Source of the DNA: Lysobacter sp. yr284
GTDB lineage: Bacteria; Pseudomonadota; Gammaproteobacteria; Xanthomonadales; Xanthomonadaceae
Assembly (NCBI RefSeq): GCF_900107375.1
Contig: NZ_FNPT01000001.1
Location: 496,001 to 560,000 of the forward strand
Length of the DNA stretch: 64,000 nt
Direction of reading: 5' to 3'
Shown piece after piece: positions 2,091 through 15,009 of this stretch; within the stretch, counting starts at the first letter, position 1; each line of letters starts with the position of its first letter. The notes under the pieces are model-generated. The model searched no databases. It was not told the DNA's origin and saw nothing but the letters and a program-made list of their open reading frames with translations. The position numbers were made by a program, and so were the translations under genes.

Positions 2091-2810
2091 CTAGAGTTTG
2101 AAGCGGCCGCCGTCGACGCGCAGGATTTCGCCGGTGACGTAGGCCGCGTCGCGCAGGTACATCGCGGCGTCGACCACGTCGTCGACCGCGCCGATGCGCC
2201 CGAGCAGGGTCCGCGCCTTGATCGCGTCTTCCTGTTCGGCGCGCTGGGCCGGGTCGCGCACCGACGGCAGCACCGTGCCCGGCGCGACCGCGTTAACCCG
2301 GCACGGCGCCAGTTCCGTCGCCAGCGCGCGCACCAGCCCGGCGCCGGCGGCGCGGCTGACCTGGTAGGCGGCATGGCCCGCGAACGAACGGTCCAGGTAG
2401 GTATCGAGCAGCATCGTCACCGAGCGCAGCGGCCGCCGCGCGTTGAGCCGCACCGCCAGTTCCCACGGCGCCAACAGGTTGACCTGCAGGTGGCGGGCGA
2501 AGCGCTCGCGTTCCTCGGCGCTGGCGCTGCCGGCGCCGCCGTCGGCCGACAGCGCGTTCCAGGTGTGGCCGCGCTCGAACAGCGAGGCGCTGAGGATCAG
2601 GTGGTCGATGTCCTGCGCCGGCAACGCGTCCAGCGGCTGCTGCATGTCCCAGCACCACGCGTCCACCGGCGCGGCGAACGGCGCCGGCACCGCATCGGCG
2701 CTGCGCCGGTGCGCGACCACGCGTTCGCCGCGCGCCAGGCAGGCTTCAGCCAGGGCGCGGCCGATCCGGCGCGAGGCGCCGGTGACCAAGGTGGTGGTGG
2801 CCTGGCTCAT
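2091..2810 (-). CDS. SDR-family pteridine/dihydromonapterin reductase-like protein
   Basis: A 239-residue short-chain dehydrogenase/reductase, most like FolM/pteridine reductase, which reduce dihydropterins or dihydrofolate with NADPH in the cytosol. Seen: the Rossmann motif TGASRRIGRALA (residues 10-21), with the RR pair that favours NADPH and is typical of pteridine reductases, then NLLAPWEL, the active-site region GHAAYQVSR, and a C-terminal GEILRVDGGR typical of SDRs. Oddity: the catalytic YxxxK motif reads YQVSR, Arg replacing Lys. The start codon overlaps the stop of the FolK-like gene (TGATG), so the two are translationally coupled and probably act on the same pterin. A generic SDR of other specificity remains possible. 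Confidence 0.75.
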   Translation of the reverse strand: MSQATTTLVTGASRRIGRALAEACLARGERVVAHRRSADAVPAPFAAPVDAWCWDMQQPLDALPAQDIDHLILSASLFERGHTWNALSADGGAGSASAEERERFARHLQVNLLAPWELAVRLNARRPLRSVTMLLDTYLDRSFAGHAAYQVSRAAGAGLVRALATELAPCRVNAVAPGTVLPSVRDPAQRAEQEDAIKARTLLGRIGAVDDVVDAAMYLRDAAYVTGEILRVDGGRFKL

Positions 2811-3370
2811 CAACCGGCCTCCCGTTGCCCGGCATCGCGCAGTTGCGCGGCGCGCTCGAGCAGGTAGCGGCGCACGAAGCCGGCGCCGGCATAGGGATAG
2901 AAGCCGTGCGCGTTGTCCTCGCCACGGAAACCGCGCTGGCGCTGCAGTGCGTCCAGCGCGGCCTGCAGCGGCGCCAGCGGCAGTTGGCTCAAGCCGTGGA
3001 ACAGGTAGCCGCGGCCGGGATCGTAGCGCGACTGCCACTGCGGGCCATCGGCGTCCAGCGCGCCGAGCAGGTCGATGTCCAGCGGCACCGGCATGCGCCG
3101 GCGCGGGTCGCGTTGGCGGCCGAAGCCGGCTTCGATGCGCTTGAAGCGCCGTTCCAGCGCCTGCGGCTGCGGCGGGTCGCGCCAGTCCAGCGCCAGCACC
3201 AGGTTCAAGGTGGCGTCGCCGGTGTGCAGGTAGTGGCGGTCGCCGTACAGCCCGGACACCGCCGCTAACGCGGTGCCGGGTTCGGCCAGCAACTGCGCGC
3301 CGGCTTCGAGCAGGTTCTCCGCGCGCGGGCCGGCGCTGGCGCCCAGGCAGATCAGCGCGGTCGCGCTCAT
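2810..3370 (-). CDS. FolK-like (HPPK) pterin pyrophosphokinase homologue
   Basis: This 186-aa protein resembles 2-amino-4-hydroxy-6-hydroxymethyldihydropteridine pyrophosphokinase, which transfers pyrophosphate from ATP to the pterin in folate synthesis. Seen: N-terminal ICLGASAGPRAENL matching the HPPK start (GSNxGDRxxNL), the strand TLNLVLAL, and the Mg2+-binding Asp pair in PLDIDLL near residue 100. It is diverged: the usual GPRxLDLD context reads VPLDID, so the conserved Arg before the Asp pair is missing, and the C-terminal half (GRGYLFHGLSQLPL) is unlike canonical FolK. It is the first gene of a coupled pair with the FolM-like reductase. It may be an alternative-pterin enzyme rather than the housekeeping FolK. 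Start ATG at 3370; no strong Shine-Dalgarno is seen. Confidence 0.65.
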   Translation of the reverse strand: MSATALICLGASAGPRAENLLEAGAQLLAEPGTALAAVSGLYGDRHYLHTGDATLNLVLALDWRDPPQPQALERRFKRIEAGFGRQRDPRRRMPVPLDIDLLGALDADGPQWQSRYDPGRGYLFHGLSQLPLAPLQAALDALQRQRGFRGEDNAHGFYPYAGAGFVRRYLLERAAQLRDAGQREAG

Positions 3371-5037: not shown

Positions 5038-5211
5038 GCGCGTGGCGTCCTCGGGCGGGTGGCGGGCGGCTTGGGCTGGGACGATGCTGCGCCGGGGGAT
5101 GTTGGACCAATGTCGGAACCGCGTCGGCGGGCGCGGCCGGGGTTCAGTGTGCGGGCGGTGGATGACAGGGGCGTGGCGCCTGTTCAGGCGGCGGGTCGGC
5201 CGCGTCGGAGC

Positions 5212-5296
5212 CGAAAGCGTCGGGCCTGAAGGCCCTCCCACAAGAGCGGGTCCAACCTCGGCTCTTGTGGGAGGGCCTTCAGGCCCGACGCTTTTC
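5212..5296. repeat. Dispersed palindromic repeat, family A (near-perfect copy)
   Basis: The best inverted pair of the family: GCGTCGGGCCTGAAGGCCCT and its complement, each extended by CCCACAAGAGC/GCTCTTGTGGG, around a loop of about 13 bases. It is followed by CTTTTCC, so it could also work as a transcription end. It lies just upstream of the TelA cluster promoter region (the AT-rich stretch at 5335-5375). Confidence 0.85.
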
Positions 5297-5389
5297 CCTC
5301 CGCCACCGCGCTCCCCCCACCCGGCCCCGGACTGTCAAACATAGGTCATACATAGCCCATACGCTGCCGGTGAATAAGGAGGTTCGCCA

Positions 5390-6517
5390 ATGAGGAAGAT
5401 CCTCGGCCCCGCGATCGCGGTGGTGCTGCTGCTCGGCGTCGTCGCCGGCATCGTGATGTCCTTCAACGGCAAGCGCGCCGACGACCGCGCCGCCGCCGAA
5501 ACGCGCAAACAGCAGGCCGACACGGCCGCGCGGATCACCGTGCGCGTGCTCACCGGTTCGGAGAAGCTCGATTTCCTGCGCGATCCCGAGCTGGCCCAGG
5601 TCCTGCTCGCCGACAACATCGTGCTCGACGTGCAGAAGGCCGGTTCGCGCGAGATCGCCACCCGCCCGGACCTCAAGAGCTTCGACGCCGCCTACCCCGC
5701 CGGCACCGCCGCGGCGCGCAAGATCGCCGACGCCACCGGATCGCGCCGCATCTACAACGGCTTCTACACGCCGATGACGGTGGCCAGCTGGAAGCCGCTG
5801 CTGCCGACGCTGGAAGCCAACGGCATCGTCGGCAAGCGCGGCAACGCCTACTTCATCGTCGACATGCGCAAGCTGGTGGCGCTGATGGAGAGCGGCGCGC
5901 GCTGGAAGGACCTGCAGCCCAACCCGAACTACGCGGTCGGCAAATCGGTGCTGATCACCAGCACCGACGTGCGCACCAGCAATTCGGCGGCGATGTACCT
6001 GGCCCTGGCCAGCTACCTGGCCAACAACGACGACGTGGTCGCCAGCGACGCCGCCGCCGACCAGGTCGCCGACCGGCTGGTGCACCTGTTCTCCAAGCAG
6101 GGCTACCAGGAATCGAGCTCGTCGGGGCCGTTCGAAGACTACGTCACCATGAAGATGGGCAAGTCGCCGCTGGTGATGATCTACGAGCAGCAATTCCTGG
6201 AGTACGCGTTCAAGCACCCGCGCGTGGACCCGGACATGCTGCTGCTGTATCCGCAACCGACCGTGCTGACCAAGCACACCATCGTCGCCCTCAACGACAA
6301 GGGCGCGCGTTTCGCCGAGGCCTTCGAGCGCAACCCCAAGGTGCGCGCGATCGCCGCGCGCTACGGGTTGCGCGGGCCCGACAACGCGACGCTGTTCGCC
6401 GACGCCGGCAAGCGCGGCATCGACATGCCGCAACAACTGGTCGACGTGGTCGATCCGCCGACCTACGACCTCCTCGAACGCATGATCGGCCGCATCGAAT
6501 CGCGGCTGGGCCACTGA
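5390..6517 (+). CDS. Membrane-anchored solute-binding-like protein of TelA/XpaC cluster
   Basis: 375 aa. One N-terminal membrane helix (about residues 5-24, ILGPAIAVVLLLGVVAGIVM) with a short cytoplasmic start, then a large extracytoplasmic domain resembling periplasmic solute-binding proteins of ABC systems; no lipobox Cys is present. No permease or ATPase gene is nearby, so import seems unlikely. The strong AAGGAGG Shine-Dalgarno seven bases before the ATG fixes the start. It is the first gene of a cluster with telA (12-bp gap), a solute-binding/VWA lipoprotein and an XpaC-like gene. The second lipoprotein also carries a solute-binding domain, suggesting the two were recruited together. Function unknown. 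The family call is moderately sure; the biological role is inference from context. Confidence 0.7.
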   Translation: MRKILGPAIAVVLLLGVVAGIVMSFNGKRADDRAAAETRKQQADTAARITVRVLTGSEKLDFLRDPELAQVLLADNIVLDVQKAGSREIATRPDLKSFDAAYPAGTAAARKIADATGSRRIYNGFYTPMTVASWKPLLPTLEANGIVGKRGNAYFIVDMRKLVALMESGARWKDLQPNPNYAVGKSVLITSTDVRTSNSAAMYLALASYLANNDDVVASDAAADQVADRLVHLFSKQGYQESSSSGPFEDYVTMKMGKSPLVMIYEQQFLEYAFKHPRVDPDMLLLYPQPTVLTKHTIVALNDKGARFAEAFERNPKVRAIAARYGLRGPDNATLFADAGKRGIDMPQQLVDVVDPPTYDLLERMIGRIESRLGH

Positions 6518-6529
6518 AGGAACGACGCC

Positions 6530-7756
6530 ATGAGCACGCCCCAGACTCCCGCCGCGCCCACCACCCTCGCCGAGCCCATCGCCCCGCTGACCCTGGACAT
6601 GCCCGAGCCGGCGATGCCCGTCGCCGGGCCCGACCAGGCCGCGGCGATGATCCCGTTCAAGGACGAGACCCGCATCCAGGTGTTGAGCCAGGCCGACCAG
6701 TTCATCGCCGACCTGCTCGCGCTGGACCCGCACTCGGAGGATTTCCGCAGCCGCGTGGACAGCGCGTTCCGCCTCGGCCGCAAGGAGATCGGCGACAGCA
6801 CCTTGCTCACCAACAAGTTCCTCGACCGCAACTTCGTCGCCGACGCCGACAGCCCGGCGTTCAAGGTGATGAGCGAAATGCGCATCCTGTTCGAGGACCT
6901 CAACCCGTCCAAGGAAGGCGACCTGCTGGCCGCGCACAAGCTGCTCGGGCTGATCCCGTTCGGCAACAAGCTGCGCGCCTACCTGCAGCGCTTCGACTCG
7001 GCCGGCGACTCGATCCGCAAGACCATCGACAGCCTCTACGCCGTGCAGGACGAACTGGCGCGCGACGACCAGGCGCTGTACGCGACCATGCAGAAGCTGC
7101 TGGAGGCGCTGACCCGGCTCAAGGCCGCCGACGTGTTCGCCGAGCAGCTCGACGGCAAGCTCAGCGCGGCGCTGGAGTCGCTCAAGGCCGCCGACCCGGC
7201 GCGGGCCAAGGCGGTCGAGCAGGAAGTGCTGTTCTACGTGCGCCAGGCCAGCGTCGACATCAAGACCCAGATCCTGGTGTGCATCAACGGCTACAAGATG
7301 CTCGAAGGCCTGCGCAAGACCGGGCGCGAGCTGCGCAACGGCTGCGACCGCATGGCCACCATCGGCATGTCCAGCCTGTCGATCGCCGCGACCCTGGCGC
7401 GTGCGCAGGGCTACCAGTTGCAGGTGATGGACGCGCTGAAGTCGTCCTCGCGCGCGATCGAGGGGCTGATCGCCTCGACCTCGTCCCAGTTCGGCCAGCA
7501 CGTCGACCGCGTCGCCGAGTTCCAGAGCAACCCGCTGATCGGCGTGCAGACCCTGCAGAACGCGTTCGACACCACCTTCGCCGCACTCGACCGCATGGAC
7601 GAGTTCCGCAGCAAGGCGATCGGCGCGATGGGCAGCAACATCGAGCAGTTGCGCGGCCTGATCGCCAAGGGCGAGGCGCGCATGAACCGCGAGCGCGAGG
7701 CGGTGGCCGCGGTGCGCCACAGCATCGCCGCGCCGGCCGGGCCGGTGTCGCTGTAA
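6530..7756 (+). CDS. TelA-family toxic anion resistance protein
   Basis: A 408-residue cytosolic protein of the TelA/KlaA family (tellurite and toxic anion resistance). It is largely alpha-helical with long coiled-coil-like stretches. Seen: the Pro/Ala-rich N-terminus (residues 1-45), then FRSRVDSAFRLGRKEIGD, LIPFGNKLRAYLQRFDSA (about 140-158; the family-typical PFGNKL motif), and the conserved C-terminal helices ending in EQLRGLIAKGEARM. Shine-Dalgarno AAGGAACG precedes the ATG. Known: TelA homologues sit beside XpaC-like proteins, and sometimes VWA or Ter proteins, in many bacteria; the biochemical activity is unknown. Here it is encoded between two solute-binding-domain proteins. Confidence 0.9.
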   Translation: MSTPQTPAAPTTLAEPIAPLTLDMPEPAMPVAGPDQAAAMIPFKDETRIQVLSQADQFIADLLALDPHSEDFRSRVDSAFRLGRKEIGDSTLLTNKFLDRNFVADADSPAFKVMSEMRILFEDLNPSKEGDLLAAHKLLGLIPFGNKLRAYLQRFDSAGDSIRKTIDSLYAVQDELARDDQALYATMQKLLEALTRLKAADVFAEQLDGKLSAALESLKAADPARAKAVEQEVLFYVRQASVDIKTQILVCINGYKMLEGLRKTGRELRNGCDRMATIGMSSLSIAATLARAQGYQLQVMDALKSSSRAIEGLIASTSSQFGQHVDRVAEFQSNPLIGVQTLQNAFDTTFAALDRMDEFRSKAIGAMGSNIEQLRGLIAKGEARMNREREAVAAVRHSIAAPAGPVSL

Positions 7757-7800
7757 CCCGGCCGCGGCCCGCCCTTACCCCGATGAACCCGCGCCGTACC

Positions 7801-7920
7801 CGCCCCGTCGTTGCGGCGAACGCCGGAATCCATTTCGATCTTGCCGTTGCTTTTGCCTTGGCGCGTGCGGAAAAGAGCAACGTCAAAACGGATTCCGGCG
7901 TTCGCCGCAATGACGGGGTG
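7801..7920. repeat. Large inverted repeat inside the TelA cluster
   Basis: The outer arms of roughly 30 bases (CGTCGTTGCGGCGAACGCCG and its near-complement CGGCGTTCGCCGCAATGACG) enclose a loop of about 50 bases that is itself partly palindromic (GTTGCTTTT/AAAAGAGCAAC). The arms resemble the half-repeats of the tandem array at 13468-13800. It occupies most of the 232-bp gap between telA and the VWA gene, and could attenuate or process the transcript. Confidence 0.8.
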
Positions 7921-7988
7921 AAGCCTTGGACGCCGCCTGTTCCCACTGATCGATCTCCCGTAACGCTCCGCCACAGGAAGGCCCAGCC

Positions 7989-9608
7989 ATGACCCGATTC
8001 GCGCACCGCGCTTTGCTCGCCTTCGCCGCGCTGCTGCTCGCGTCCTGCGGCGGCGGCAACGGTTCCGGCGACACCGCCGGCGACGGCGGCGCCGCCCGCA
8101 CCGACGATGCCCCGGCCTTCACCGTGCTGGCCGGCTCCGAACTCAAGGACATCGACGCCCAGCTCGGCGACGAGATCGCCCAGGCCACCGGCGTGCGCCT
8201 GCGCTTCACCTACGCCGGCACCCTCGACGCGATCGACCGCCTCGCCGCGGGCGAGAAGTTCGACGCGGTCTGGGTCAGCCACGGCAAATACCTGGCGATG
8301 AATCCGGCGCTCAAGCAGCGCCTGCTCGCGCAGGAAAAAATCATGCTGTCGCCGGTGGTGCTGGGGGTGAAGACCTCCAAGGCGCGCGAACTGGGCTGGG
8401 ACAAGGCCGACCCGACCTGGAAGGACATCGCCGAGGCTTCGCGCGCGGGCCGCTTCAGCTTCGGCATGACCAACCCGACCTCGAGCAACACCGGCTTCAC
8501 CGCGCTGATCGGCATCGCCTCCGCGCTGGCCGCGAACCCCGACGCGCTGACCGAGGCCGACGTCGCCAATCCCGCGCTCAAGGCCTTCTTCCAGGGCCAA
8601 CGCATGACCGCCGGCTCGTCGGGCTGGCTGGCCGACACCTATGCGCGCGAACAGGGCAAGGTCGACGGGCTGATCAACTACGAATCGGTGCTGCTGAGCC
8701 TCAACCGCGACGGCCGCCTGGGCGAGCCGCTGACCCTGGTCTATCCGAAGGAAGGCATCGTCACCGCCGACTATCCGCTGATGCTGCTCGACGCCGGCAA
8801 GCGCGCCGGCTACGACAAGCTGGTCGCGTTCCTGCGTTCGCCCGCGTTCCAGACGCGCCTGTCGCAGACCACCCTGCGCCGTCCGGTCAATCCCGAGGCG
8901 CAGGCCGCCGCCAGCATCCCGCAGCGCACCCTGATCGAGCTGCCCTTCCCCGGCCAGCCGCAGGTGATCGACAGCCTGCTGCAGGGCTTCCTCGCCGACG
9001 TGCGCATCCCGGCCAGCTCGCGCTACGTGCTCGACCTGTCCGGCTCGATGGGCAACGACGGCCGCATCGAGGCGATGAAGGCGGCGATGGACACCCTCGC
9101 CGGCGGCAACGCCGCTTCGCTGACCGACCGCTACGCGCGCTTCCAGAACCGCGAGCGCATCGGCGTGCTGACCTTCTCCAGCCGGCCCGAGCGCACCCGC
9201 CTGTTCGACATGGGCCGCGACGCCGCCGGCAACGCCGCCGCCTTGCGGGCGATCCGCGCCGAGATCGCGCCGCTGCAGCCCGGCGGCGGCACCGCGATCT
9301 TCGACAGCGTGCGCCAGGCGCTGACCGAACTGGCCGCCGACAAGCGCGCCGCGCGCGAGCCGCGCTACTACACGGTGGTGCTGATGAGCGACGGCGAGAA
9401 CACCGAAGGCAGCGACCTGCGCGCGTTCCTGGGCTGGTACGCCGCCCAGGACGAAGCGCTGCGCTCGATCCGGGTGTTCCCGATCCTGTTCGGCGACGCC
9501 GACCCGGACGAGATGAAGTCGCTCGCGCAGGCCACCGGCGGCCAGGTCTTCGACGCCAAGAGCAAGTCGCTGACCCTGGTGTTCAAGGACATCCGCGGGT
9601 ACCAGTGA
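7989..9608 (+). CDS. Lipoprotein with solute-binding and VWA domains
   Basis: 539 aa. The signal peptide ends in the lipobox LLLASCG (Cys near residue 19), followed by a Gly/Ser linker, so it is probably a lipid-anchored periplasmic protein. Residues about 35-335 look like a bacterial solute-binding domain (TVLAGSELKDIDAQL start, then SNTGFTALIGIASAL). Residues about 340-539 form a von Willebrand A domain with a complete MIDAS: DLSGSMG (DxSxS), the Thr in GGGTAIFD, and the Asp in MSDGENTEG. Metal-dependent ligand binding to a partner protein is therefore likely. The AGGAAGG site upstream supports the ATG. It is coupled to the next gene by a one-base stop/start overlap. The substrate-binding-plus-VWA architecture recurs beside TelA genes elsewhere; no function is established. 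Confidence 0.85.
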   Translation: MTRFAHRALLAFAALLLASCGGGNGSGDTAGDGGAARTDDAPAFTVLAGSELKDIDAQLGDEIAQATGVRLRFTYAGTLDAIDRLAAGEKFDAVWVSHGKYLAMNPALKQRLLAQEKIMLSPVVLGVKTSKARELGWDKADPTWKDIAEASRAGRFSFGMTNPTSSNTGFTALIGIASALAANPDALTEADVANPALKAFFQGQRMTAGSSGWLADTYAREQGKVDGLINYESVLLSLNRDGRLGEPLTLVYPKEGIVTADYPLMLLDAGKRAGYDKLVAFLRSPAFQTRLSQTTLRRPVNPEAQAAASIPQRTLIELPFPGQPQVIDSLLQGFLADVRIPASSRYVLDLSGSMGNDGRIEAMKAAMDTLAGGNAASLTDRYARFQNRERIGVLTFSSRPERTRLFDMGRDAAGNAAALRAIRAEIAPLQPGGGTAIFDSVRQALTELAADKRAAREPRYYTVVLMSDGENTEGSDLRAFLGWYAAQDEALRSIRVFPILFGDADPDEMKSLAQATGGQVFDAKSKSLTLVFKDIRGYQ

Positions 9609-10276
9609 TGACGCTGCCGGTCGCGCCGCCGCCGACGACGCCGACGCTGGGCCAGCGCCTGCGTTTGTACCTCTACAGCAACCGCAACATCGCCGGCTGC
9701 GCGCTCGGCCTGGTCGGGCTGGGCCTGCTGTTCGCCGGGGTGATCGCGACCGGTTGGCCGCTGATCGTGCTCGGCCTGTACGGCGTCGGCGCGCTGGCGT
9801 GGCCGCGCGACCGGCTCGGCGAGCGCGTGGCCGAAGCCGAACTGCCGGTGGAGGCGCTGATCGAACACCTCGACCGCCTGGTCGGCGAAGTGGCCAAGCG
9901 GGTGCCGGCCGAGGCGCTGGCGAGCCTGCGCAACATCCAGCAGACCCTGGGCGAACTGCTGCCGCGGCTGCACGAGCTGCGCGGCTCCGGCGCGCTGTCG
10001 GCCTCGGCCGCGTTCGCGGTGCAGGAAAGCCTGCGCCGCTACCTGCCGGACATGCTCGGCGGCTACCTCAAGCTGCCGCCGGTGTTCGCCCGCACCCAAC
10101 CGCTCAAGGACGGCCGCACCGCCGCGCAGACGCTGTCGCAGCAACTTGAGCTGCTCGACCAGTCGCTGCAGCGCATCTCGCGCGAGGCCTTCGCCGGCGA
10201 CGCCGAATCGCTGCTGCTGAGCGAACGCTTCCTCAAGGAAAAGTTCGACGCCGCTGCCGCGTTCGAACTGGCCTAG
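9608..10276 (+). CDS. XpaC-like membrane protein
   Basis: 222 aa. Two closely spaced hydrophobic helices in the first third (about residues 24-62, NIAGCALGLVGLGLLFAG and WPLIVLGLYGVGALAW), then a long helical cytoplasmic domain (LPVEALIEHLDRLVGEVAKR ... ELLDQSLQRI). This matches the layout of the XpaC family (labelled 5-bromo-4-chloroindolyl phosphate hydrolysis protein), which commonly accompanies TelA. The enzyme name is historical and should not be taken as the role. Its ATG overlaps the stop of the VWA gene (TGATG), so it is translationally coupled; a GTG one codon earlier is less likely. It probably anchors TelA at the membrane (inference). Confidence 0.7.
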   Translation: MTLPVAPPPTTPTLGQRLRLYLYSNRNIAGCALGLVGLGLLFAGVIATGWPLIVLGLYGVGALAWPRDRLGERVAEAELPVEALIEHLDRLVGEVAKRVPAEALASLRNIQQTLGELLPRLHELRGSGALSASAAFAVQESLRRYLPDMLGGYLKLPPVFARTQPLKDGRTAAQTLSQQLELLDQSLQRISREAFAGDAESLLLSERFLKEKFDAAAAFELA

Positions 10277-10286
10277 GCGCGCGACG

Positions 10287-10763
10287 ATGGCGACCGACCA
10301 GGACGCGCTGTGGCAGATCCGCCAGTCGTTGGCCGAGGAAGGCCGCCTGGGCGGCAAGCGCGGGCCGCAGGAGCGCGTGCCGCTGGACCAGGGCCAGCTC
10401 GAGGACATCGCCTGGCGCATGCTCCGCGCCGGGGTCCAGCCGACCGTGGAAGCCATCCGCGCGGTCTACGGCAGCGGCTCGCCCAATCGCCTGCATCCGA
10501 TGTTGCGGCGCTTCTACGCCGGGCTGGCCACGCGCCTGCAACTGGCGCCGCTGGCCGACGACGTGCCCGCGCCGCTGCGCCAGCTGTGGTTGCAGGCGCT
10601 GGATCTTGCCAGCGACGCGGTGCGCGAGCGCCACGACGCCCAGGCCGAAGCCCTGCGCCAGCGCGTGGCGGAACTGGAGAAGCGCGAGGCCGCGCTGGAA
10701 CGCAAGCTCAAGCGGCTGCGGCGCGACGGCGCGGCGCCGCGCGCGGACGGCGCGGCCGAATAG
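10287..10763 (+). CDS. KfrA-like DNA-binding protein with coiled coil
   Basis: 158 aa. The N-terminal part (residues 20-80) resembles the KfrA N-terminal DNA-binding domain: a helix-turn-helix region ending in the characteristic VEAIRAVYGSGSPNRLHPML stretch. The last 50 residues (AQAEALRQRVAELEKREAAL) form a heptad-rich coiled coil ending in basic then low-complexity sequence. KfrA proteins are plasmid or chromosome-associated repressors that multimerise through their coiled coil; this one is much shorter than plasmid KfrA. It starts ten bases after the XpaC-like gene and may autoregulate the cluster or couple it to DNA (inference). Confidence 0.7.
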   Translation: MATDQDALWQIRQSLAEEGRLGGKRGPQERVPLDQGQLEDIAWRMLRAGVQPTVEAIRAVYGSGSPNRLHPMLRRFYAGLATRLQLAPLADDVPAPLRQLWLQALDLASDAVRERHDAQAEALRQRVAELEKREAALERKLKRLRRDGAAPRADGAAE

Positions 10764-10802: not shown

Positions 10803-11675
10803 TCAGCCGCGCGCCTGGCGCAGTTGCAACGGACTCACCCCGAGCAATCGGCGCATGCAGCGCGCCATGTGGCTGGCATCGGCGAAGCCGGTGTCCAGCG
10901 CGATCTCGCTCAATCCCGCCGCGCCGTCCAGCACCCGCTGGCGCGCGCGCTCGACCCGCCGCTGCAGCACGAAGCGGTGCGCCGGCAGGCCGGTCGCGCG
11001 TTTGAACAGCGGCTTGAAGTGCGACACGCTGAAACCGGCGACGGCGGCGAGTTCGGCCAGCGACAGGTCCGCCTCCAGGTGCGCCTCGATGTAGTCGATC
11101 ACCCGCGCCAGCCGCCACCCCGGCAGCGCCCGCGCCGTCGCCGCGGGCGCGCGCGCGAAGCGGTGCAGCGCCAGCAGGCGCGCGGCCAGCGCATCGGCCA
11201 GGGCATCGACGAACAAGCGCCCGCTGGGGTAACGCTCGCGGTCCTCGGCCTGCATCATCCAGCCGATGCGCTCGATCTGCGCGTCGCGCAGGTGCGCGGC
11301 CGGCGCCAGTTCGACCGCGCCGCCGCCCGAGCCCATCGCCTGCGCGGTCTCGTCGATCAGTTCCGGCGCCATCCGCAACAACAGCGAGGTCGCCGGCCCC
11401 GACATCGTCCAACGGGTGCTGGCGTTGGCCGGCGACACGCAATACTGGCCCTGCAGGCGCACGCCGCGCCGCTCATGGCGGCCTTCGCGATAGCTCACCG
11501 GCACCGCCCCGCCCTGGTGCAGGCACAGCACGTGGCGGCGGTCGAACGGGGTGTCGAACAGGCCTGGCGGCACCGGCACGGTCAGCACGTCCAGGCGCGG
11601 TGCGGCGGCCACGGCGTGCTCGCGCGGCCGCGCCGCCGCAGGCAGTTCGGGATAGCACGCAGGACGGTCGGCCAT
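10803..11675 (-). CDS. AraC-family transcriptional regulator
   Basis: 290 aa. The C-terminal 100 residues carry the two helix-turn-helix motifs of the AraC/XylS family: DLSLAELAAVAGFSVSHFKP followed by GLPAHRFVLQRRVERARQ, and then AGLSEIALDTGFADASHMAR with the terminal LGVSPLQLR. The N-terminal half is a probable cupin-type sensor domain (VSYREGRHERRGVRLQ) with an unknown ligand. The gene is divergent from the secreted VOC-domain gene with about 175 bases between the starts, so that gene is its most obvious target (inference). Confidence 0.92.
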   Translation of the reverse strand: MADRPACYPELPAAARPREHAVAAAPRLDVLTVPVPPGLFDTPFDRRHVLCLHQGGAVPVSYREGRHERRGVRLQGQYCVSPANASTRWTMSGPATSLLLRMAPELIDETAQAMGSGGGAVELAPAAHLRDAQIERIGWMMQAEDRERYPSGRLFVDALADALAARLLALHRFARAPAATARALPGWRLARVIDYIEAHLEADLSLAELAAVAGFSVSHFKPLFKRATGLPAHRFVLQRRVERARQRVLDGAAGLSEIALDTGFADASHMARCMRRLLGVSPLQLRQARG

Positions 11676-11850
11676 GGCGCGATGCTCGGCGCCGGCCGGC
11701 GCCGCCGGCAGAGGCGAAAGTCATCCTTTCGTACTGACGGCCGGCCGTTCCTGCGCGCGCGGCGGCGACGGCGGCGCCAGCCTGTACGGGTCCGCGGCGT
11801 TGCGGCGCGATGCCGCCCGCCGATTCCATCCGCCCTTCCGAGCCGCCCGC

Positions 11851-12879
11851 ATGCGCCTGTTTCCCCGCCTCGCCGCCGCCGTCGCGACCCTGTCGCTGTC
11901 CGCCCTCGCCCTCGCCGCTCCCACGCCGCGCCCAAGCGCCGGCGAGCGCCTCGACCACGCCCTGCTGTGGGGCCGTAGCCTCGACCAGATCACCGCGGCG
12001 ATGACCGTCAAGCTCGGCTTCCAGGTCGCGCCCGGCCGGCCGCAAGGCGCGCTGGCCAACCGCTACGTGCGCCTGGACGGCGAGCGCTTCATCGAACTGC
12101 TGGGCCTGACCGGCGCCGACGCGCCGCTCGACCCCGGCGCGCAGGCCGACCAGGCCGCGCTGCACGGCGCCGCCGGCGCGCGCACCTTGGTCCTGCACAG
12201 CGACGCGCTCGACGCCGCGCGCGCCGCGCTGCTCGCCCGCGGCCTCGCCGCCACGCCGGTGTTCTCCGCCGCGCCCGACGATCCCGACGGCACCGGCCCC
12301 GGCACGCCGCCGCGCTGGAGCCTGTTCGCGGTCGATCCCTCGCCGCTGTCGAGCCGGCTGTTCTACATCCGCTACGCGCCGGTGCGTCCCGACATCGCCG
12401 CCGACCGCCGCAGCGCGCGCGAGCACCCCAACGGCGCGCGCGAACTCAGCGCGCTGTGGCTGCTCTCGGCCGACGCCGAAGCCGACCGCGCGCAACTGGC
12501 CAGGCTCGGCTACGACCGCGCCACGCCGGTGCGGCTGGCGCAGATCGGCGCGCGCGGCTATTGCGTGGCGATCGGCGCCAGCGCGTTGCTGGCGCTGCAG
12601 CCCGACGGCGCCGGCGCCGCGGCCGACGCGCTGGCCCAGGGCGGCGCGCAGATCGCCGGAATCAGCATCGGCGTAGCCGACCTCGAACGCGCCCGGCACC
12701 TAGTCGGACGCGGCTACGAACGCACGCTGGAGCGCTATCGCGGGCTCGCCGGCGCGTCGTTCCTGGCGCCGAGCCGCGACGACCTCGGGCTGTGGATCGA
12801 GTTCCATGCGCGCGACCGCGCAACCGGCCCCTGCGGCGCGGCCGCGGCCGGCGCCGCCAGCGCGAACGCCGGGCGCTGA
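11851..12879 (+). CDS. Secreted glyoxalase/VOC-fold protein
   Basis: 342 aa. Signal peptide MRLFPRLAAAVATLSLSALA with cleavage near AAPTPR. The mature part matches the glyoxalase-like (VOC superfamily) domain type: LDHALLWGRSLDQITAAMTV near residue 35, RFIELLGL near 80, then a second half (ELSALWLL ... QIAGISIGVADLERARHL) ending in LGLWIEFH, where a metal-ligand Glu is typical. The domain is usually cytosolic, so export is noteworthy. The ATG at 11851 is chosen because it starts the signal peptide; upstream in-frame codons overlap the divergent promoter. Substrate unknown. The C-terminus (CGAAAAGAASANAGR) is low complexity. Confidence 0.75.
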   Translation: MRLFPRLAAAVATLSLSALALAAPTPRPSAGERLDHALLWGRSLDQITAAMTVKLGFQVAPGRPQGALANRYVRLDGERFIELLGLTGADAPLDPGAQADQAALHGAAGARTLVLHSDALDAARAALLARGLAATPVFSAAPDDPDGTGPGTPPRWSLFAVDPSPLSSRLFYIRYAPVRPDIAADRRSAREHPNGARELSALWLLSADAEADRAQLARLGYDRATPVRLAQIGARGYCVAIGASALLALQPDGAGAAADALAQGGAQIAGISIGVADLERARHLVGRGYERTLERYRGLAGASFLAPSRDDLGLWIEFHARDRATGPCGAAAAGAASANAGR

Positions 12880-12987: not shown

Positions 12988-13074
12988 GCCCGGATGGCGA
13001 AATCGGTAGACGCAGCGGACTTAAAATCCGCCACCCGCGAGGGTATGCCGGTTCGAGTCCGGCTCCGGGCACCA
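12988..13074 (+). tRNA. tRNA-Leu (anticodon UAA)
   Basis: 87 nt class II tRNA with CCA encoded. The acceptor GCCCGGA pairs with TCCGGGC, the anticodon stem GCGGA/TCCGC encloses loop CTTAAAA (anticodon TAA), there is a long variable arm, and the T arm contains GTTCGAGTC. It decodes UUA, a very rare codon in DNA this GC-rich. In Escherichia coli this tRNA (leuZ) directly follows cysT behind uvrC-pgsA; here it is nearby but on the opposite strand. Confidence 0.97.
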
Positions 13075-13467
13075 CGGCTTGCAGCGATTCGGACGAACGC
13101 GAATCCCGGACCGTGCCGACGCCGCTGCGCAGTTCCGTCCGGCGCTGCATCGGCCGCATTCGCCGCCTCCCACGCCTCCACCCGCCTGTGTCCACGCGCG
13201 CGTCCGCCGCGCGCGCCGACAGCGAGCCGATCGCACGCAGCCTGCGCGCGCGTTCGCGCTTGCGCACGACGACTCAATGGCGCGAACGCGGCTGCGTGAT
13301 CGGCCCGTCACAACCCAACCGCGGACATCGTTCGCACCCATCGCCGCGAAATTTTTCGCGCATGCGCAGGTCGCACGCATGCAGCGCGAACGTTGCCACC
13401 GCCGATGCCGCATCGCCGCTGCCTTTCTCAAGATGCCCGGCGATTTGAAAGAAGCGCCTTTTTCCTG
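13075..13467. other. Intergenic stretch without recognised gene
   Basis: About 390 bases after tRNA-Leu. It holds only short overlapping GC-rich frames with no conserved signature and no ribosome-binding site, and I see no terminator directly behind the tRNA. It leads into the tandem repeat array. Confidence 0.5.
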
Positions 13468-13800
13468 CGGTCGTTCCCAGCAACGCGGAACTCCGGGCTC
13501 CATCGCGACATGGCGCTGAAGTCTATGGATCCCCGCCTTCGCGGGGATGACGGTCTGCGAGAGGCGCGGAGAAACCTGGCTACCGTCGTTCCTGCAAAAG
13601 CGGGAACCCAGGCTTCATCGCGACATGACGCTGAAATCTCTGGATCCCCGCCTTCGCGGGGATGACGGCCTGTGAGAAGCGCGGCGATACCCAGCTATCG
13701 TCGTTCCCGCGAACGCAGGAACCCAAGGCTTCATCGCGGCATGACGCTCACAACCCTGACCCCCGACGTTCCCGCGAATCCAGGATCGCAAGCGTTGCGG
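13468..13800. repeat. Tandem array of a roughly 115-bp repeat, 2.5-3 units
   Basis: Successive units begin at about 13506 (CGACATGGCGCTGAAG), 13621 (CGACATGACGCTGAAA) and 13737 (CGGCATGACGCTCACA), a period of 115-116 bases. Each unit contains the small palindrome CCCCGCCTTCGCGGGG and the half-repeat CGTTCCCGCGAACGCAGGAA, with a degenerate leading half-unit from about 13468. The third unit is more degenerate. It lies between tRNA-Leu and the DUF5713 gene. Confidence 0.85.
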
Positions 13801-13815
13801 GAAACCCCGCATCCC

Positions 13816-14157
13816 TCACCAATCGCGCGGCGCGATCAGTTCCTCGACATCCGCCGAGTCGAAGCCGTACGCGTGGGCGATGACCTCGAAGTCGCCGCCG
13901 ATGTTTTCGCGCGCGGCGGTTTCGATCTCGCTGTCGTGGCGTTCGAACTCTGCGGCGAGCCGGTTGAATTCCTCGGTCGCGGCATGGGTCAGCAGGTACA
14001 GCGCATCCAGCGACGGCGGCGGCTCCGCTTCGATGGCCTCGCACAGGCGGATCAGGATCTGCCGTCCCTTCGCCACCAGAAACGGCGGGAAATAGGCGTC
14101 GCTCTGCATGTCGGCGAGAAAGTCGTACTGCTGCAACTGCGGGTTGGCGATGCTCAC
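13816..14157 (-). CDS. DUF5713 family protein
   Basis: 113 aa, cytosolic, with no membrane or signal segment. It matches the DUF5713 type: FLADMQSDAYFPPFLVAKGR near residue 13, then LLTHAATEEFNRLAAEFE (about 55-72) and a C-terminal AYGFDSADVEELIAPRDW. The start is a GTG at 14157 with AGGAG seven bases upstream; other in-frame starts run into the pseudo-tRNA sequence. Function unknown. It lies alone downstream of the tRNA-Gly array, between two structured repeats. Confidence 0.85.
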   Translation of the reverse strand: MSIANPQLQQYDFLADMQSDAYFPPFLVAKGRQILIRLCEAIEAEPPPSLDALYLLTHAATEEFNRLAAEFERHDSEIETAARENIGGDFEVIAHAYGFDSADVEELIAPRDW

Positions 14158-14249
14158 TGGGGCGCTCCTTGCGCCGGGTCGATCCTGCGATGGTACGTCA
14201 CCGAAATCGCGTGCCCCAACACTTGCGCTGCGGCGCGCGTGCGCCAGCG

Positions 14250-14305
14250 CCGCCGGCGTACGCGGATTCGCAGTGCGCTGCAAAACCACTTGGCCACCCT
14301 GTCCC
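14250..14305 (-). pseudogene. Decayed tRNA-Cys copy
   Basis: Reading the minus strand, this stretch aligns with the 5' two thirds of the intact tRNA-Cys at 14705-14778. It shares GGCCA, then GTGGTTTTGCAGC (intact: GTGGTTATGCAGC) and GAATCCGCGTACGCCGG around a GCA anticodon. The anticodon stem has a C-C mismatch and the T arm with GGTTCAATTCC is gone, so it cannot be functional. It follows the third tRNA-Gly, indicating past duplication of a Gly-Cys unit. Confidence 0.75.
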
Positions 14306-14326
14306 GGCTCCGGCCTCGAGCGCGCA

Positions 14327-14356
14327 AAGAAAAAACGGCCGGCTTGCGCCGACCGC
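14327..14356 (-). terminator. Rho-independent terminator after the third tRNA-Gly
   Basis: On the minus strand, hairpin CGGTCGGC-GCAA-GCCGGCCG followed by TTTTTTCTTTG. Confidence 0.8.
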
Positions 14357-14396
14357 TTGGTTCGCTGCTGTGCGCCGCCATCGCGTCGCATCGGTT

Positions 14397-14472
<76 letters not shown>

Positions 14473-14514
14473 TGATTTTTAGCTGCCGCCCCGGCGCGCC
14501 GAAGCGGGCCGGGG

Positions 14515-14547
14515 AAACAAAAGGCGGCCGGCTCGGCCGGACGCCTT
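14515..14547 (-). terminator. Rho-independent terminator between the second and third tRNA-Gly
   Basis: On the minus strand, AAGGCG-T-CCGGC, loop CGA, GCCGG-C-CGCCTT, then TTGTTT. Confidence 0.7.
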
Positions 14548-14585
14548 GGATGCCGCGGATGCGTCGCCGGGGCGAGGCATCGATC

Positions 14586-14661
<76 letters not shown>

Positions 14662-14704
14662 TGATTTTTTCGACTCCGGCGATGCAGCTGCCGAGGTCGC
14701 GAAT

Positions 14705-14778
14705 TGGAGGCCGAGGTCGGAATTGAACCGGCGTACGCGGATTTGCAGTCCGCTGCATAACCACTCTGCCACCCGGCC
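14705..14778 (-). tRNA. tRNA-Cys (anticodon GCA)
   Basis: 74 nt with encoded CCA and U73. Acceptor GGCCGGG pairs with CTCGGCC (one G-U), anticodon stem GCGGA/TCCGC encloses CTGCAAA, and the T arm has GGTTCAATTCC. This is the intact parent of the decayed copy at 14250-14305. Confidence 0.96.
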
Positions 14779-14855
14779 GGTGACGTCGATACATGTTGCC
14801 TTAACACTACGATCGCTGGCAATCCCGAATGTCGCTGGGCGCCGGCTCCCGTCCT

Positions 14856-14884
14856 AAAAAAACAAACCCCCGCGAGGGGGTTTG
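14856..14884 (-). terminator. Rho-independent terminator after the first tRNA-Gly
   Basis: On the minus strand, CAAACCCCC-TCGC-GGGGGTTTG followed by seven T residues. It separates the promoter-proximal tRNA-Gly from tRNA-Cys. Confidence 0.9.
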
Positions 14885-14933
14885 ATTTCAAGGCGTTCCG
14901 TCGCCGGAAACCGGACCGGAACGCCTAAGAATC

Positions 14934-15009
<76 letters not shown>

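Follow-up and report, generated by a model that had tools for sequence, protein, structure and literature searches.

Why would two solute-binding proteins be encoded beside a TelA gene with no transporter next to them? The question is raised by a same-strand run of genes at positions 5390-10763 of the window, the whole 64,000-nucleotide stretch of Lysobacter sp. yr284 (contig NZ_FNPT01000001.1) analysed here; in a reading of its open reading frames (ORFs), no transporter gene adjoined the run. A first-pass annotation of the window had grouped five genes into one system. We found that four of these, g1, TelA, S and g4, form a real and widespread module with a well-supported architecture, and that the unit is these four genes, the KfrA-like fifth gene being dropped. 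The best reading of this cassette is as a periplasmic-input variant of TelA/XpaC stress systems, a branch of the TelA/Ter response. The names of TelA and XpaC are old ones, from toxic-anion resistance and indolyl-phosphate hydrolysis, and for neither protein do we know of an established mechanism. Their association with two ligand-binding proteins in a widespread cassette offers a practical way into the question of what stimulates this branch.

The five ORFs were confirmed at the places and on the strand first assigned to them, and the locus comprises the following features:

5390..6517, + strand: g1, an N-terminally membrane-anchored periplasmic solute-binding-fold protein of 375 amino acids
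6530..7756, + strand: TelA-family protein of 408 amino acids (PF05816, 165.4 bits, cut-off 30)
7803..7918, no strand: palindromic element with two 42-nucleotide arms between TelA and S, probably inserted
7989..9608, + strand: S, a probable lipoprotein with a solute-binding domain and a VWA domain with a complete metal ion-dependent adhesion site (MIDAS)
9608..10276, + strand: g4, an XpaC-like protein of 222 amino acids with an N-terminal hydrophobic region (probably a hairpin) and a helical domain
10287..10763, + strand: KfrA_N-domain protein (PF11740, 62.6 bits, cut-off 26.1), a lineage-specific neighbour

The ATG of g4 at 9608 shares one base with the TGA of S, the TGATG overlap noted in the first pass, and the KfrA-like ORF does follow ten bases 3' of g4. 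The genes are not all tightly packed, because a 232-bp gap containing the palindrome separates TelA from S. TelA was the sole TelA match in its own genome, and no hydrophobic segment was found in the protein (6530-7756).

Conservation of the four-gene cassette

A profile of S, built from a seven-row alignment, was scanned against GTDB genome contigs. This gave 409 relatives, of which the best 80 were kept; the choice is biased towards close relatives, and evenly drawn genome samples served as a check. Profile searches placed g1, TelA, S and g4 on one strand within 6.5 kb in 66 of the 80 loci, two of which have a short part (a 71-residue TelA fragment in L031; a contig ending inside g4 in L104). 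The other 14 loci comprised two cut by contig ends (L047, L071), ten with g1-S-g4 and no TelA, and two with g1-S alone. It was noted that g1 occurred in 78 of the 80, both misses being contigs cut short at their ends. The complete cassettes span about eight phyla, the record titles of the 80 loci naming Pseudomonadota, Acidobacteriia, Chloroflexi, Actinomycetes, Deinococcales, Desulfobulbus, Dormibacteraeota and Eremiobacterota. The closest relatives among those found were from Lysobacter (the same-genus genome G355 and Lysobacter enzymogenes, L027). Variovorax, Nonomuraea and Sphaerotilus replicons also carry the four genes; Curtobacterium and Arthrobacter plasmids carry TelA without S.

The even samples gave a similar picture. 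Full-length S was present in 7 of 299 genomes of the same phylum, with the four genes together in 7/7, and TelA exceeded its cut-off in 45 of the 299. Among the actinomycetes, 17 of 148 genomes had full-length S (20 loci); g1 adjoined S at 20/20 loci, at one of them as two pieces of one frame, and all four genes stood together in 10 of the 17 genomes. Wherever the sequence reached, g1 adjoined S, at times without TelA or g4. A protein search found TelA in 5 of 247 genomes of the window's family, and the cassette is therefore patchy in that family. Because of these conservation counts, the grouping of the genes is more than chance, and the proposal that g1, TelA, S and the XpaC-like gene travel together held over great distances. 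The neighbourhood comparison suggested in the first pass was thus borne out for the solute-binding and VWA genes, most TelA genes having other contexts, but not for the KfrA-like gene. A second g1 gene was seen in L038 and L072 and a second g4 gene in L046. The Variovorax cassette (L009, 460-2855 and 12213-13176) is near flotillin, OB-fold and Wadjet JetA genes by annotation.

We then compared trees of the four genes for 65 sequences with all four, L031 and L104 having been dropped. Tree distances correlated between genes at r 0.78-0.92. Outside Lysobacter, the cassettes nearest for each of the four genes were those of two acidobacterial metagenome-assembled genomes (MAGs), L030 and L032. This pattern fits a transfer of the whole cassette.

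In the literature searched, a TelA cassette with solute-binding and VWA genes was undescribed; a 2012 survey of Ter systems, outside that search, may mention part of it. Anantharaman, Iyer and Aravind reportedly treated Ter-type stress systems that include TelA and VWA proteins in 2012.

The KfrA-like neighbour

The claim that the KfrA-like protein belongs to the system failed, its gene being found in 1 of the 80 related loci. It is barely credible that all five genes are one system with this protein as the transcriptional output. The ten-base spacing and the presence of the gene beside the cassette in G355 and L. enzymogenes (L027) speak for such a unit, but beyond the count in the 80 loci, the stretches fetched around the cassettes in two congeners, G320 and G272, did not show the gene. 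As a general component the KfrA-like protein is refuted; a local role is possible.

Folds and motifs of g1 and S

S exceeded both Pfam cut-offs (SBP_bac_11, 71.4 bits; VWA, 43.9 bits), with the solute-binding domain at approximately residues 40-340 and the VWA domain at approximately 340-539. Its MIDAS is complete, as had been described (DxSxS, T435, D468), and D349, S353, T435 and D468 were kept in 86 of 86 alignment rows and S351 in 85 of 86. Invariant cleft-type motifs (GSE, SN.G, GSSG) were also noted. A lipobox matched a strict expression in 53 of the 86 rows, a lower bound because the rows had been trimmed. The solute-binding character given to g1 was upheld by its predicted model, which has that fold, but not by Pfam, where no match exceeded the cut-off. 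The AlphaFold models of both g1 and S have a type II periplasmic-binding fold, near sulfate, ferric and phospho-ligand receptors. Searches of solved structures by sequence gave nothing useful for g1, TelA or g4 and unconvincing matches for S; haemagglutinin rows returned for g4 were taken as chance, arising from hydrophobic or helical stretches.

The type II fold is shared with the solute-binding proteins of ATP-binding cassette (ABC) transporters, such as Sbp, FbpA, AfuA and ModA. g1 and S differ from these in lacking a fixed permease or ATPase partner, in the membrane helix of g1 and in the VWA domain fused to S. Whether they could be orphan receptors for import by a transporter encoded elsewhere was judged from the flanks of the 80 loci, where ORFs of at least 90 amino acids were clustered by blastp. 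The broadest flank family was ABC ATPases, at 12 of 80 loci, and L036 has an exporter-type gene (10862-12613) on the strand of the cassette, 715 bp downstream. FTR1 iron permease genes stood a few kb upstream in seven Planotetraspora and Microbispora loci (L089 at 2175-3017, where Pfam was applied, and L074, L078, L083, L087, L095 and L099). Such neighbours, with the ABC receptor folds, would suit import. However, the 12 ABC cases were of mixed types, on both sides and strands and at distances of 28 to 5348 bp, a scatter to be expected when a family is this common, and the FTR1 genes are probably family synteny among related genera. Moreover, g1 is held by its helix, S is fused to VWA, and the pairing is with TelA/XpaC. 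The first-pass view that the pair has no permease or ATPase of its own was supported, none standing in a fixed place beside the cassettes in the 80 loci. For this reason g1 and S would be a receptor rather than an importer, and import appears very improbable.

Two further candidates were rejected. Among the flank clusters, the other broad ones belonged to Streptosporangiaceae and similar actinomycetes; they resemble family synteny rather than recurrent extra partners. An anti-phage defence role was also set aside, the PADLOC and phage-family matches both being weak.

g4 as a relative of XpaC

No match to Pfam XpaC (PF10112) over the cut-off was found in the window's own genome, g4 included, and PF10112 was absent among 25 of the 26 families listed for 69 g4 members at E 0.1. 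By profile-profile comparison with hhalign, g4 matched XpaC over 176 columns covering the hydrophobic region and the helical domain, with probability 89.9 and, for a single comparison, E 1.7e-6. The controls gave 0.2 against TelA, 1.0 against reversed XpaC, and 0.1 and 0.4 for two of 20 column shuffles. Direct profile searches were weak and patchy, the XpaC profile reaching four g4 rows below E 0.02 and the g4 profile one XpaC. In five genomes (G506, G486, G468, G684 and G490) the order TelA-S-XpaC-g1 was found on one strand, with PF10112 over its cut-off in 5/5 and S carrying SBP_bac_11 and VWA in 5/5; these are probably Alphaproteobacteria, a class taken from their lying in the same phylum and another class. 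A Pfam-confirmed XpaC thus holds the g4 role there, and the earlier label XpaC-like is a fair one. Gene position, the more telling line, and the profile-profile comparison together make g4 a relative of XpaC. In the same-phylum sample, Pfam XpaC exceeded its cut-off in 22 of 299 genomes, and TelA lay in the same fetched stretch at 13 of the 22 XpaC loci (L124-L145).

The xpaC-yaaN operons of Bacillus subtilis and its relatives resemble the cassette in setting a TelA-family gene beside a gene for an XpaC-type membrane protein, and XpaC-TelA pairs were also found here in Pseudomonadota. In contrast to the cassette, the xpaC-yaaN pairs are without the two solute-binding proteins and the VWA domain, and g4 has diverged beyond what the Pfam XpaC model detects. 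The literature places xpaC-yaaN in the core sigma-W regulon of B. subtilis (PMC3498285). A paper on the CesSR envelope-stress regulator lists telA1 and a gene for an XpaC-like protein among those induced in a Lactococcus transcriptome (PMC3139573). A Listeria TelA mutant is reported, in a passage citing Collins 2010, to be more sensitive to nisin and tellurite (PMC12791056).

TelA in trans and the TerD link

When the 12 TelA-less GTDB loci were traced to their genomes, one TelA was found elsewhere in seven and none in five. In six of the seven it was a lone gene that the cassette profile matched at E 7e-164 to 3e-172, placing it in the cassette subfamily. The remaining genome had an XpaC-TelA pair of another kind, whose XpaC was found by the g4 profile at E 1e-5. 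TelA was likewise present elsewhere in six of the seven actinomycetes without an adjacent copy, a count made among S-bearing genomes. In 6/6 of these, the genes after the trans TelA were a g4-like one and one whose product has a Pfam TerD domain. The six g4-like proteins had no membrane-like segment, their highest 17-residue hydropathy being 0.65-0.91; the corresponding value was at least 1.48 in all 80 cassette g4 rows. A similar TelA and g4-like gene lie inside an annotated TerD cluster on the Curtobacterium plasmid.

This pattern connects the cassette with the TelA/Ter response. It also suggests, by inference, that XpaC-type proteins could fit TelA to a sensor on either side of the membrane, periplasmic or cytosolic. 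The split arrangements (trans TelA, helix-less XpaC-like protein, TerD) make the connection with the Ter response open to experiment. Ter-type stress systems, described in part in PMC7824862, share with the cassette a TelA and a VWA protein, and cassette-subfamily TelA beside TerD genes in six actinomycetes is a further shared feature. The cassette differs in carrying VWA on a periplasmic lipoprotein and in that a TerD-like gene was not found in its loci. In a Chloroflexota locus (L045, 2148-5570), a g1-S pair without TelA or g4 was followed by an OmpR-type response regulator.

A proposed periplasmic sensor coupled to TelA

Gene conservation and order, the predicted folds, the intact MIDAS, the XpaC relationship and TelA in trans incline us, with slightly better than even confidence, to a four-component envelope system, in keeping with the envelope-spanning sensing proposed in the first pass, in which a periplasmic ligand sensor is coupled through an XpaC-type adaptor to TelA. 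The topology, physical contacts, direction of signalling, ligand and downstream action of TelA would then be as follows. g1, with its one N-terminal helix, and the lipoprotein S would sit outside the inner membrane, where the VWA/MIDAS of S would probably use a metal ion to hold on to a partner, either g1 or an envelope component. The likeliest input would be an oxyanion, metal-anion or phospho-ligand, because the receptors nearest in structure are those for sulfate, for ferric ion with an anion, and for phosphorylated compounds. A divergent XpaC whose hairpin would lie in the membrane and whose helical domain would lie in the cytosol, g4 could act as the adaptor from the periplasmic pair to cytosolic TelA; g1-S would touch g4, g4 would touch TelA, and ligand binding would alter TelA. 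TelA is thought to act at the inner membrane face in toxic-anion and envelope stress and, according to PMC7824862, to form sub-membrane structures. An analogous precedent for a binding protein signalling to a membrane partner is HptA of the Staphylococcus aureus HptASR system, in which, according to PMC8774646, a solute-binding-fold protein relays ligand binding. HptASR differs in having the histidine kinase HptS and a response regulator, whereas the cassette has an XpaC-like protein, TelA and two solute-binding proteins.

More tentatively, the cassette could represent a kinase-free class of transmembrane signalling, running from paired solute-binding proteins (one with VWA) through an XpaC hairpin adaptor to TelA, with XpaC-type proteins as interchangeable input selectors. 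If so, the membrane-anchored ones would serve periplasmic solute-binding/VWA sensing and the helix-less ones cytosolic TerD sensing.

Several observations weigh against a sensor coupled to TelA. Most TelA genes occur without S, full-length S being found in 7 of the 45 TelA-bearing genomes of the same-phylum sample. TelA matches were absent from the five TelA-free GTDB genomes of the 12 (all MAGs, perhaps incomplete) and from the actinomycete G764, and three Lysobacterales MAGs have g1-S-g4 and no TelA match. A TerD-like match was absent from the 80 cassette loci and from the window. The structural matches of the g1 and S models were often tied within 1-2 Z, and the g4 hairpin was not clean, with one hydrophobic window in 36 of 80 rows, two in 35 and three in nine. 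Linkage and shared descent would also produce the tree correlation.

G439, G440 and G764 have neither TelA nor g4, a further point of this kind, and g1-S can therefore exist without them. Standing alone there, g1-S makes up the invariable core of the cassette, and none of the proteins showed a recognisable signalling domain; both facts would agree with a periplasmic sponge, in which g1 and S hold a toxic ion outside the membrane and TelA and g4 are a separate, co-inherited membrane-protection pair. We consider this quite unlikely. TelA and g4 adjoin the pair in most cassettes examined, and a TelA missing from the cassette is often kept at another site in the genome, in six cases as a lone gene; this retention suggests that the two are functionally tied. 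A sponge would also require less than two different anchored solute-binding proteins together with an intact MIDAS.

A role in envelope assembly or the cell wall, with the VWA/solute-binding pair holding a structural component and TelA-XpaC as a cytoplasmic scaffold without a soluble signal, is also unlikely. It gains from the adhesion and complex formation that VWA domains commonly mediate (PMC5898192) and from the envelope-stress response of XpaC-TelA genes in the papers cited above. In two Methylococcaceae (L118, 4435-9126; L120, 4696-9472), a solo TelA stands immediately before SIS/CBS, HAD, LptC and ABC-ATPase genes resembling a lipopolysaccharide-export operon, by reading for both and also by Pfam for L118, and this too would suit such a role. 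On the other hand, cassettes occur in actinomycetes and in bacteria with lipopolysaccharide alike, so that the target would need to be shared, and the invariant cleft-type motifs of S suggest a bound ligand. A K+ transporter lies on the other side of the solo TelA in L118 and L120.

Palindromes, transcription signals and neighbouring genes

The TelA-S palindrome is probably a mobile palindromic repeat inside the operon. In G355, a relative 93-94% identical, the TelA-S gap is 82 bp as compared with 232 bp in the window, and by reading contains no such palindrome. A similar palindrome was read in L. enzymogenes (L027). A second inverted repeat, with 42-nucleotide arms that are 93% complementary, lies just upstream of g1 (window 5206-5302). 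A promoter scan of the locus found none, and its two predicted terminators, against 3.5 in shuffles, are no excess. Downstream of the five genes, an AraC-type regulator is encoded on the opposite strand, and a tRNA gene cluster (Leu, three Gly, Cys) was noted at window 12988-15009.

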